A stretch of 64,000 nucleotides of DNA from assembly GCF_026236535.1 (NCBI RefSeq), contig NZ_JAHTMW010000009.1, positions 248,001 through 312,000 of the forward strand, in the 5' to 3' direction. The position numbers were made by a program, and so were the translations under genes. This DNA comes from Streptomyces sp. SKN60 (GTDB lineage Bacteria; Actinomycetota; Actinomycetes; Streptomycetales; Streptomycetaceae). The notes below the pieces were generated by a model. It made no database searches. It was not told where the DNA came from and worked only from the letters and a program-made list of their open reading frames with translations. The stretch's first letter is position 1; each line of letters opens with the position of its first letter. Below, piece by piece: positions 11,155-40,556 of this stretch.

Positions 11155-11196
11155 CTATTTCGCGCCATGTCAGAGGACAGACGGAACGAGGCACAG

Positions 11197-11802
11197 ATGA
11201 CCGACCCGGTGACGCTGGACGGCGAGGGCCCGATCGGCGAGTTCGACGAGAAGCGCGCCGAGAACGCCGTGCGGGAGCTGCTGATCGCGGTCGGCGAGAA
11301 TCCCGACCGAGAGGGCTTGCGGGAGACTCCCGCGCGCGTGGCGCGGGCGTACAAGGAGCTCTTCGCGGGGCTGTGGCAGACGCCCGAGGACGTCCTGACG
11401 ACGACGTTCGACCTGGGTCACGACGAGATGGTTCTGGTCAAGGACATTGAACTGACTAGTCAGTGTGAACATCATTTGTTGCCATTCCATGGCGTAGCTC
11501 ACATTGGTTATATCCCGGCTGAAACGGGCAAAATTACCGGCCTCTCGAAGCTGGCGCGCCTGGTCGATGTCTTCGCCCGCCGTCCGCAGGTGCAAGAGCG
11601 TCTGACGACGCAGATCGCCGACTCGCTGATGAAGATCCTCGACGCGCGGGGCGCGATCGTCGTGATCGAGGCCGAGCACATGTGCATGGCGCTGCGTGGA
11701 GTCCGTAAGCCCGGGGCGAAGACGACCACTTCGGCGGTACGTGGTCAACTTCGTGACGCTACTACACGTGCCGAGGCTATGTCCCTGATATTGGCCCGTT
11801 AG
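11197..11802 (+). CDS. folE: GTP cyclohydrolase I with anomalous internal codon usage
   Basis: FolE turns GTP into 7,8-dihydroneopterin triphosphate, the first step of folate synthesis; folP, folB and folK follow on the other strand. It has 201 residues from ATG 11197; an ATG at 11167 is in frame but the shorter start has the usual N-terminus. Zinc ligands Cys90 and His93 (CEHH) and Cys163 (EHMC) are all present, so the enzyme should be active. Codons for residues about 83-115 (11441-11540) are strikingly non-Streptomyces: TTG TTG, CAT CAT, AAA, ATT, GAA and TAT, with GC near 46% against about 70% outside. The last 70 bp are also softened (CTT, ACT, ACA, ATA). The protein in this stretch ([14 protein letters not shown]) differs from the form I recall for Streptomyces. 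This suggests replacement of the segment from elsewhere. Confidence 0.95.
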
Positions 11803-11823
11803 TAGCGGACTGTCCTTCCTGCT

Positions 11824-11876
11824 CCATACCGTCCCGATCAGTGGAGTTGATCGCTGATCAAGGGGGATCGGTATGG
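11824..11876 (+). promoter_or_regulatory. Long hairpin enclosing the Shine-Dalgarno and start codon of the homing endonuclease
   Basis: CCATACCG (11824-11831) pairs with CGGTATGG (11869-11876), TCCC (11832-11835) can pair with the GGGGG of the ribosome binding site, and GATCA (11836-11840) pairs with TGATC (11855-11859). The resulting stem of about 17 bp closes a 14-nt loop and would mask AGGGGG and the ATG at 11873. No T tract follows, so it is a poor terminator candidate. Translational repression is the simplest reading. Confidence 0.6.
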
Positions 11877-12865
11877 GGTACGGGTTGTCCAGCAATATGT
11901 TGGTGAACCTCGTCGGTGGCTGTATCCGGGCGAAGGGCGTGGTGCCGGGCAGCGCGATGTGGACGCTGGACGGCGACCGGGCGGTGCAGACCACGGTTAT
12001 GGGCGTGACAGCGGTGAAGGGCCGCGAGGCCGTCGACGTGGTCACAGACCACATGACGTTCACCGCGAGCCCGGATCTGCTGCTGAGCACGCCCGATGGC
12101 TGGGTGCAGGCACTGGACTCGGCGGGTGCGACGGTCGCTTGGACGCCGGCGCGGAAGCTGCGCCGGGAGCGGTTCATGATCAGGCCGGGCTACGAGTTCG
12201 GGTACTTCGTCGGGGCCACCTGTGCTGATGGCACGGTCGGCAAGAACTATGTGTCGCTGGTCGTGAACGAGGAGGGTTTCGCGACCCGGTACGCGGCTGC
12301 CTTGACGGCCTGCACGGGGCTTCCTGCGCGCCTGGAGGCGGTAACCCGCCCGTCCGGCTATCTCAGGCGGGACCTGGCGGGTTTCCGGGTCCGGGTCGTC
12401 TCCTCGTACCTCTCCGACGCCCTGAGGCACTACGTGGGCGGGGACGCCCACCACATGCGGCAGCGCTTCCCGCGGGCGGTTCTCCGAGATATCGACACGT
12501 TCAGCGGGTTCCTCGACGGGTACATCGAGGGCGACGGCTGCCGGATCAAGCACTGGCCCGCGCGGATGATCGTCAGTGCCAATGTCCCGTTCCTGGCAGA
12601 GATCGCTCCCGTCATCGGGGCACGGTTCACGCCCGCGACCCACAGGGTGGTCTCTCAGCTCTGTGTCTCCGACCGCTGGCAGAGCCGCGGCACCTTCGCC
12701 CCCGAGCACCACCGCCTCGACCCGCCCGAGTCCACCTGGGTCCAGGTCCACGAGGTCCGCCCCCGTCCCGCCCTCGGTGCCAAGCCCTTCACCTTCTACA
12801 GCTACCGGCTTTCCCCGCACCCCACCTTCCTGGTGAACGGGCACCTTGTACGCGAGCCGTGGTAG
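11873..12865 (+). CDS. Free-standing intein-derived LAGLIDADG homing endonuclease
   Basis: A 330-residue protein with the layout of an intein but encoded alone. Residues about 17-100 look like the N-terminal Hint half (Cys17, WTLDGDR, then TASPDLLLSTPDGW at 64-77, matching intein block B). Two dodecapeptide LAGLIDADG motifs follow, GYFVGATCADG at 110-120 and GFLDGYIEGDG at 212-222, each ending in the acidic metal-binding residue. The C-terminus SPHPTFLVNGHL resembles intein blocks F/G. Splicing residues are lost: block B His is replaced by Leu69, and the terminal His-Asn is replaced by REPW. It should therefore cut DNA but not splice. It starts 71 bp after folE, with a good but hairpin-masked ribosome site. 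The likely target is folE; this is inference. Confidence 0.78.
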   Translation: MGYGLSSNMLVNLVGGCIRAKGVVPGSAMWTLDGDRAVQTTVMGVTAVKGREAVDVVTDHMTFTASPDLLLSTPDGWVQALDSAGATVAWTPARKLRRERFMIRPGYEFGYFVGATCADGTVGKNYVSLVVNEEGFATRYAAALTACTGLPARLEAVTRPSGYLRRDLAGFRVRVVSSYLSDALRHYVGGDAHHMRQRFPRAVLRDIDTFSGFLDGYIEGDGCRIKHWPARMIVSANVPFLAEIAPVIGARFTPATHRVVSQLCVSDRWQSRGTFAPEHHRLDPPESTWVQVHEVRPRPALGAKPFTFYSYRLSPHPTFLVNGHLVREPW

Positions 12866-12914: not shown

Positions 12915-13445
12915 GTGAGCGCGTGGGGGCGGGGTTATCGATATGTCGGACCGGTCGGGCTGAAGGCTGCGGTCGGGCCTGATGACGGCGGGTGTCGGAT
13001 CGGTTCGGCTGCCGATTTCGGTGGCTGGGTCGTGGGGCGATCGGCGGCGGAGCTGGCCGAACCGTTCACCTTCGTGGTCGGTATGGACGGTGTGCTTCGG
13101 CTGGCGCCGCGGCGGAGCGAGCACGTGGCCTGTGCCGGCGGGGGCATGGTTCTGAGCGCAGGCGAGATCGGCTTCATGCGCGAGGCGGCCCGGTGGACCG
13201 TGAGCATGGTCAGCAACCAGTCCACCGGGTACTGCCCGGACGTCAGCTCATGGGCGGAGGTCGCCCGTGCCCTGGACGCCGTGGAGCTTCGGCGGCCTTC
13301 CGGCTTCACTCACGAAGTGGTGTTCCGGCGGTGCCCCGACTGTCAGGAGCACAGCATCGTGCGCGAAGACGACTTCGTGTGCGTCTTCTGCGGCAGCGAT
13401 CTGCCCGTGGTGTGGAACGTGGATCCCACTCGTCACACCGGCTAG
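12915..13445 (+). CDS. Hypothetical protein with C-terminal zinc ribbon
   Basis: A 176-residue protein I do not recognise as a named family. The first 120 or so residues contain paired hydrophobic strands (GWVVGRSAAELAEPFTFVVG, RLAPRRSEHVAC). The C-terminus holds CPDC and CVFC knuckles separated by 15 residues, a typical zinc ribbon. It starts at GTG 12915, 49 bp after the endonuclease gene on the same strand, and its 3' end overlaps the convergent DUF3180 gene by 4 bp. Codons are less G/C-biased than in the neighbours. Position and composition suggest it came in with the endonuclease as accessory cargo. No function is proposed. Confidence 0.7.
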   Translation: MSAWGRGYRYVGPVGLKAAVGPDDGGCRIGSAADFGGWVVGRSAAELAEPFTFVVGMDGVLRLAPRRSEHVACAGGGMVLSAGEIGFMREAARWTVSMVSNQSTGYCPDVSSWAEVARALDAVELRRPSGFTHEVVFRRCPDCQEHSIVREDDFVCVFCGSDLPVVWNVDPTRHTG

Positions 13446-40063: not shown

Positions 40064-40128
40064 GACGGGCCCGGGGCCGAGTGCTTCGGAGTGCCTATGT
40101 CCGAATCGCGCACGTTTCCCGCGATGCC

Positions 40129-40143
40129 GAGGTTCTGAACCTC
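40129..40143. promoter_or_regulatory. 15-bp palindrome upstream of lsr2
   Basis: GAGGTTCtGAACCTC is a perfect palindrome with a one-base centre, about 75 bp before the lsr2 start. The DNA from there to the gene is AT-rich (GTTTGTGTTTTTCC, GCATTTTCGATG) and contains GCGG-CCGC half-sites. It is a candidate operator or autoregulatory site. Confidence 0.4.
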
Positions 40144-40217
40144 TGCCAGGGGTTTGTGTTTTTCCGGGAAAAGCGGTTTCCTTTCCGCGTACTGCATTTT
40201 CGATGAAAGGAAATCCG

Positions 40218-40556
40218 GTGGCACAGAAGGTTCAGGTCCTTCTTGTCGACGACCTCGACGGCGGCGAGGCGGACGAGACCGTGACGTTCGCGCTGGACGG
40301 CAAGTCCTACGAGATCGACCTCACCACCGCCAACGCGGACAAGCTCCGTGGCCTGCTCGAGCCGTACACCAAGGGTGGCCGACGCACCGGTGGCCGCACC
40401 GCCGGCGCCCGCGGCAAGGCCCGCGTCGCCGTCTCCGGCGGCAGCCAGGACACCGCGAAGATCCGGGCGTGGGCCAAGGAGAACGGTTACAACGTGAACG
40501 ACCGCGGCCGCGTGCCGGCCGACATCAAGGCCGCTTACGAGGACGCCAACCGCTGA
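40218..40556 (+). CDS. lsr2: Lsr2 nucleoid-associated silencer
   Basis: H-NS-like protein that binds AT-rich DNA in the minor groove and silences foreign genes and specialised-metabolite clusters. 112 residues: the N-terminal dimerisation strand region (KVQVLLVDDLDGGEADETVTF) is followed by a flexible Gly/Arg linker. The C-terminal AT-hook-like domain has IRAWAKENGYNVNDRGRVPA, containing the RGR motif. GTG 40218 is chosen over ATG 40203: GAAAGGA precedes it at good distance and VAQKVQVLLVDDL is the family start. Its 3' end overlaps the convergent neighbour by 22 bp. Confidence 0.96.
   Translation: MAQKVQVLLVDDLDGGEADETVTFALDGKSYEIDLTTANADKLRGLLEPYTKGGRRTGGRTAGARGKARVAVSGGSQDTAKIRAWAKENGYNVNDRGRVPADIKAAYEDANR

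Follow-up and report, generated by a model that had tools for sequence, protein, structure and literature searches.

We propose that the window analysed here, the whole 64,000-nucleotide stretch of DNA from Streptomyces sp. SKN60, is likely to contain a free-standing homing element that derives from a folE intein and copies itself together with a cleavage-resistant 3′ part of folE, as a bacterial analogue of the WHO elements of yeasts. The element would be a single block, consisting of the folE 3′ part with its recoded target, a hairpin leader and a LAGLIDADG endonuclease gene. The features discussed below are the following:

11167..11802, + strand: folE (GTP cyclohydrolase I), intact ORF (Pfam PF01227, E 7.9e-75; NCBIfam FolE; identity profiles)
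11443..11463, + strand: upstream half-site, 21 nt; strongest departure of altered alleles from intein flanks and from ordinary alleles (mismatch counts)
11446..11541, + strand: recoded AT-rich patch over CEHH, about codons 94-125 (codon profile, GC scan, matched pairs)
11463..11464, + strand: point matching the in-frame FolE intein site, between codons 99 and 100, inside the patch (comparison with Prauserella, Kibdelosporangium and others)
11737..11799, + strand: second recoded stretch, folE 3′ end, codons 191-211 (codon profile, GC3 recount)
11820..11880, + strand: hairpin leader of the endonuclease gene, behind folE (MFE -44.5 kcal/mol, z -4.7; covariation)
11873..12865, + strand: free-standing putative homing endonuclease of intein origin, 330 aa, HINT and LAGLIDADG (alignment, model, fold matches)
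12194..12235, + strand: LAGLIDADG motif 1, with Asp 119 at 12227-12229 (D in 46/46 intact ORFs)
12500..12541, + strand: LAGLIDADG motif 2, with Asp 221 at 12533-12535 (D in 46/46 intact ORFs)

In the proposed mechanism, the endonuclease descends from an intein that still interrupts FolE before the Cys of CEHH in other bacteria. The block would reach an ordinary folE by conjugation or another form of DNA exchange, where the endonuclease is expected to cleave at the former intein position. Repair templated by the copy with the element would then replace the rest of that folE and insert the endonuclease gene behind the stop codon. An element that lies behind its target and not inside it would have to be protected by a changed target, the recoded patch, which would appear AT-rich because most synonymous changes in a GC-rich genome go towards A or T. 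Once the endonuclease decays, the codons would drift back to G or C while the amino-acid changes stay.

Two recoded stretches in folE

The original prediction described an AT-rich patch over the catalytic motif of folE, and a 100-bp GC scan of the window bears this out, with a GC of 0.46 at 11441-11540 against a window mean of 72.5%. The lowest 100-bp value of the whole 64 kb (0.44) is found at 11437, and only 0.04% of the 100-bp windows have a GC of 0.46 or less. The sole other place at or below 0.50, at 40115-40258, overlaps the start of an ORF (40203-40556) that we take from its sequence to be Lsr2-like, and is probably promoter DNA. The codon profile also contains the AT-type codons that had been named. 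The numbering of the catalytic residue as Cys90 holds when translation is counted from the ATG at 11197, but from the ATG at 11167 it is residue 100.

The codon profile was referred to 94 Streptomyces folE genes with the ordinary motif, none of which has the endonuclease gene beside it. In these ordinary alleles GC3 is 0.90 over codons 94-120, 0.94 over codons 121-190 and 0.93 over codons 191-211, and the corresponding values in the window are 0.37, 0.86 and 0.38, so that the first recoded stretch covers about codons 94-120 and a second one lies at the 3′ end of the gene. Codon 208, inside this second stretch, is ATA, and it is retained in most altered alleles without the neighbouring gene (GC3 0.25 there). 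ATA has no synonymous transition to a G- or C-ending codon, and we infer that it is therefore the slowest to drift back. As a guess, the second stretch may make repair tracts extend as far as the endonuclease gene. Scans with promoter and terminator consensus sequences around the endonuclease gene found none, and a promoter role of the second stretch is neither supported nor excluded by them.

AT-rich codons at CEHH could also reflect a translational effect, in which slow codons are used at the catalytic motif irrespective of what lies next to folE. Ordinary Streptomyces alleles do have TGT at the Cys in 55% of cases, and GC3 at their two His codons is 0.63-0.69. However, their GC3 deficit over the patch as a whole is only -0.02 (n=94), and in 20 other actinobacteria patch GC3 is 0.68-1.00, with a median deficit of -0.05 and a lowest value of -0.18. 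Since the codons are not markedly AT-rich in these 20 actinobacteria, the patch is not a property of the CEHH motif itself. A translational effect is already disfavoured by the linkage to the endonuclease described below, and we regard it as extremely unlikely.

Two short AT-rich stretches in one gene might instead have come in by introgression, on part of a folE gene from an AT-rich donor, the endonuclease being a passenger and resistance playing no role. Such a history appears very unlikely, as gene-bearing loci have a GC3 of 0.89 over codons 121-190, between the two recoded stretches, which is near the ordinary 0.94, and as FolE residue 96 follows the endonuclease clade. This residue is Ile in 0/21 sequences of the window's endonuclease clade and in 24/25 of the other clade, and it separates the two clades but for one row.

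An intein relative without splicing residues behind folE

An intein-like endonuclease had been expected directly downstream of folE, and the ORF at 11873-12865 indeed combines HINT and LAGLIDADG regions. It is a separate ORF after the folE stop codon and not an in-frame insertion in the host protein. The window protein alone has no Pfam match at E<=1; among 23 aligned family members, Pfam LAGLIDADG_3 is found in 21 (the window row not among them) and an intein splicing domain in 5. The AlphaFold model of the window protein (mean pLDDT 91.5) places a LAGLIDADG domain within a HINT domain, and among PDB folds it is most similar to those of the TliVMA and PhoVMA inteins and of PI-SceI. The HINT part alone matches mini-inteins with VIA Z scores of 19-20 over ~130 residues and an rmsd of mostly 1.5-1.8. 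A PDB sequence search with the family profile gave three weak matches only; the informative matches came from the fold searches.

Conservation was assessed in 46 intact ORFs, which are the 50 full-length matches minus four in which no ORF of 310-345 aa is open. By alignment, the splicing residues have been lost (Gly at the aligned Cys1 in 46/46, the block-B His in 0/46 and the terminal Asn in 0/46), while the predicted catalytic Asp of both LAGLIDADG motifs is retained in every one. A median dN/dS of 0.21-0.23 among these ORFs indicates that the endonuclease ORF is under purifying selection. Such selection would also suit a domesticated DNA-binding protein that acts through the patch as a regulator of folE. 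Domestication of a LAGLIDADG protein is known from WhiA, which is among the weaker fold matches of the endonuclease model. Against such a regulator stand the 46/46 retention of catalytic Asp, the frequent decay of the gene and its patchy distribution on the ftsH tree (both below), and we consider it highly improbable.

Catalytic motifs like this one had been named as typical intein insertion points, and in other bacteria in-frame inteins do occur at this Cys. A scan of named genomes yielded 61 loci, of which 54 are Streptomyces loci with the gene after folE and seven are loci outside Streptomyces in which the homolog interrupts FolE at the CEHH Cys. These seven belong to Prauserella endophytica, Prauserella flavalba, Kibdelosporangium philippinense, an Amycolatopsis and three MAGs (one named Gemmatimonas, one named Rubrobacter and one Rubrobacteraceae). 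In Prauserella endophytica, FolE and intein read as one protein, with Cys1, a TPDHP block and a terminal His-Asn immediately before the motif (...HLTHN/CEHH). The in-frame inteins have 49-52% protein identity to the window protein. For one of the seven loci (L082) only the 3′ junction is available, as its contig begins inside the homolog, and in the Amycolatopsis locus (L075) the frame seems to change just before the intein, before 3992, which would seem to be a broken gene or a sequencing error.

When these two loci are set aside, the 46 free-standing and the five remaining intein sequences separate on one branch of an unrooted tree with 100/100 support, which fits a single escape from the intein state. 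At the level of sequence, the free-standing endonuclease and the folE intein are shown to have a common origin. A direction from intein to free-standing gene is suggested by the intein position and by the loss of the splicing residues. An in-frame folE intein was found in none of the 45 Streptomyces genomes with a match.

The leader of the gene is a hairpin whose 3′ arm covers the window's start codon and most of an AAGGGGG ribosome-binding-like run. In 40 sequences, the window included, pairing is 86.9% in the upper and 71.1% in the lower helix; the upper hairpin is absent from a single sequence (L033). Over both helices, 65 cells are changed on both sides, compared with 27.1 (sd 4.1) in shuffles that do not keep relatedness, and two of five measures do not exceed the shuffles. 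The aligned leaders show covariation on this measure, and the hairpin probably represses translation of the endonuclease, which would hold its level low.

Linkage of altered folE to the endonuclease gene and the replaced 3′ tract

A homolog match was obtained in 45/392 Streptomyces genomes, and in all 45 a whole or fragmented gene sits downstream of folE in the same orientation, at a distance of 60-90 bp in 32 of 37 loci. Twenty-seven of these genomes have one long match and 18 have pieces only. A class-wide profile search of 394 genomes (E<=1e-20) found the gene in seven, all Streptomyces; it returned no in-frame intein and is accordingly no census. Plasmid and phage records gave no endonuclease match (tblastn, E<=1e-5). 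An inverted piece of the endonuclease gene was seen in one genome (L041, 5669-5875; genome of L010) downstream of that genome's own copy and inside another coding sequence. Most of this piece encodes letters identical to those of the own copy, and an assembly join may account for it.

Mapped onto a 122-locus ftsH tree, a full-length gene requires 25 changes in presence, and well supported branches force 16 of these; the figures are 26 and 13 for any homolog and 27 and 15 for the altered folE motif. Presence is patchy, with at least 13-16 gains or losses needed on this tree. Endonuclease distance correlates only modestly with distance in the patch (codons 94-120), with a partial r of 0.37, and with the ftsH region given the patch with 0.58. 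It follows folE codons 121-211 better (partial 0.70 given the ftsH region), and the weaker correlation of the patch is perhaps due to its compositional drift back.

To compare folE alleles, with one genome per species, 213 distinct folE genes were kept after identical folE DNA had been dropped; seven of these have inteins. Genes with the motif CEHH[LM]L[PVA]FHG were classed as altered, a split from ordinary alleles that was defined after the table had been viewed. The altered motif is present beside the full-length homolog in 50/50 distinct folE genes and beside a broken homolog in 24/30, the other six having the ordinary motif. Without a homolog, 32/126 folE genes have the altered and 94/126 the ordinary motif. 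The gene-free genomes came from a folE list favouring genes close to the window's, with 77 more picked through the remaining 229, and the sample is enriched in such close folE genes. The association of the 46 intact ORFs with the altered motif, relative to gene-free loci, has a Fisher p of 5e-21, uncorrected for relatedness and with the motif chosen post hoc; as the loci are related to each other, the counts are not independent. At this level the alleles show linkage of the endonuclease gene with altered folE, in line with the original prediction that the patch would occur mainly with that gene.

The same prediction took AT-rich codons in relatives without the gene as a sign against it. Altered folE without the gene does exist, but only 1/32 of these alleles has a patch GC3 of 0.70 or less, compared with 27/50 beside a full-length gene and 3/94 ordinary alleles. 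The median patch GC3 rises from 0.68 beside a full-length gene to 0.875 in altered alleles without the gene and 0.91 in ordinary alleles. Alleles that are altered and gene-free with regained GC3 fit a later loss of the endonuclease gene. AT-richness is not always retained beside the gene either, since patch GC3 is 0.86 or more in 11/50 loci with a full-length copy. Four loci (L140, L146, L150 and L197) have ordinary residues yet AT-rich CEHH codons; the first three are gene-free, and L146 has an apparent endonuclease leader behind folE. These four may represent another type of altered allele, one that is independent of the first.

Replacement of the folE 3′ part was assessed by pairing 30 gene-bearing loci with their closest ordinary gene-free relative, the ftsH region being at least 93% identical. 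Ten different ordinary partners were used, none with any homolog, and loci with <1300 bp upstream were left out of both this and the ftsH-tree analysis. Median identity over the 30 pairs is 94.8% at codons 12-40, 84.9% at 41-93, 64.9% at 94-112, 80.1% at 113-190 and 72.2% at 191-211, and identity at codons 94-112 is below that at codons 12-40 in 30/30 pairs. Control pairs of ordinary alleles (n=32) have 94.3, 91.8, 89.5, 92.1 and 92.1% in the same five segments. Pairs of gene-bearing and altered gene-free loci are intermediate, with 78.9% at codons 94-112 (n=25). Individual profiles leave high identity at about codons 40-55, and folE is by these profiles chimeric, with an ordinary 5′ part and an altered 3′ part.

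Downstream of the gene, an identity of 91-96% is regained in 7/7 pairs with enough downstream DNA. In S. tendae (L051), compared with L138, 96% identity resumes 10 bp past the endonuclease stop. The window's own downstream boundary is not placeable by pair comparison because another ORF follows the gene. Since the tract is replaced and identity returns after the gene, the gene entered the space behind folE, ahead of the gene that follows, along with the 3′ part of folE. The pair comparisons show one replaced block, made up of folE from about codon 40-55 and the endonuclease gene. In line with the earlier suggestion of a co-converted target, the replaced stretch ends with the endonuclease gene.

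Relative to three actinobacterial intein flanks, the upstream half-site has a median of 6/21 mismatches in ordinary alleles and 9.5 in gene-bearing ones (50 loci), and we infer that this half-site is the main immunity change. In the downstream half, the median mismatches out of 33 are 6 for gene-bearing, 7 for ordinary and 6 for outgroup alleles, and the idea that the patch merely matches intein flanks was not upheld there. The flanks of in-frame inteins are themselves low in GC3 (median deficit -0.21, codons 100-121, n=7), and part of the patch could be inherited intein flank.

These flanks bear directly on the alternative that the patch is a scar of intein loss, in which the AT-rich codons are mainly co-converted extein flank, the intein was precisely lost, the endonuclease survived behind the gene and immunity is a by-product. 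Their AT-richness would suit this history, as would the window's downstream half-site, which differs from the Prauserella flank at 4/33 nt. However, when all 50 loci are considered, intein flanks are matched no better by the downstream half than by ordinary and outgroup alleles, the upstream half is farther from them, and the matching Streptomyces genomes have yielded no in-frame folE intein. We consider an intein-loss scar unlikely, and regard the patch as a probable cleavage-resistant version of the endonuclease target.

Relation to known homing systems and significance

As described by Coughlan et al. 2020 (PMC7282813), the WHO elements of Torulaspora and Lachancea (and HO) have an intein-derived endonuclease without exteins, located downstream of a metabolic host gene. 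The 3′ end of the host gene is replaced by a version reported to be resistant, the host gene is chimeric and copies decay to pseudogenes. Yeast is also where the evolution of an intein into a free-standing homing gene such as HO has been argued, but there the proposed intein source sits in a different gene, VMA1 (PMC7282813). The folE element is similar in its intein-derived endonuclease behind a host gene, replaced 3′ end, chimeric host gene and broken copies. In contrast, it is bacterial, its intein relative is found at the equivalent position in folE itself, it occurs in single copies with no clusters seen and a hairpin lies over its start codon. It also has no fused zinc finger, as the window protein and its aligned relatives end at the HINT C-terminus. 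A WHO-like duplicated 3′ folE fragment downstream was found in 0/61 named loci (blastn, E<=1e-4) in the stretch of DNA covered at each locus. The folE element is WHO-like by working principle and is not a member of the WHO family.

A zinc-ribbon-like ORF (12924-13445), with weak Pfam zinc-ribbon matches, lies directly behind the endonuclease gene of the window, and a damaged relative of it is found behind the endonuclease gene in one other genome (L003/L036/L111). Given the fused zinc finger of WHO proteins this neighbour is curious, and it may be chance.

SegF and MobE are free-standing phage endonucleases of the GIY-YIG or HNH type that carry out intronless homing; according to PMC2988022, the cut site lies in a neighbouring gene hundreds of bp off and the stretch between is co-converted. 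The folE element recalls these T-even phage systems in the distance from its presumed cut site to the endonuclease gene, and the matched pairs show a replaced tract that reaches this gene; unlike them, it encodes an intein-derived LAGLIDADG protein on a bacterial chromosome. The in-frame FolE inteins of Prauserella, Kibdelosporangium, Rubrobacter and others have the HINT/LAGLIDADG layout and the corresponding folE site in common with the free-standing gene, but they have splicing residues and, as they interrupt their target, need no recoding.

Synthetic home-and-rescue gene drives link a cutter to a recoded functional copy of the target gene. The folE element differs from these in being natural, and its recoded copy and cutter are neighbours at the native locus. 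No folE intein or bacterial element of this kind was described among the literature matches listed, which covered titles and abstract starts of open-licence papers. On balance we favour an independent bacterial invention of the WHO/HO type, in which an intein would have escaped from its host protein, lost splicing and, once behind folE, needed to bring along a recoded, resistant version of its target. It would then be a natural home-and-rescue drive on folE across Streptomyces, and the second recoded stretch would force repair into the endonuclease gene.

At this one bacterial gene, the intein, the free-standing gene, the empty site, broken copies and probable scars left after loss are all found. 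Many such strains are in culture collections, and each step from intein to homing gene is testable as a result. folE would be a housekeeping gene with two histories, which matters for phylogeny, and if the proposed mechanism is true, gene drives with a recoded rescue copy would have a precedent in nature.
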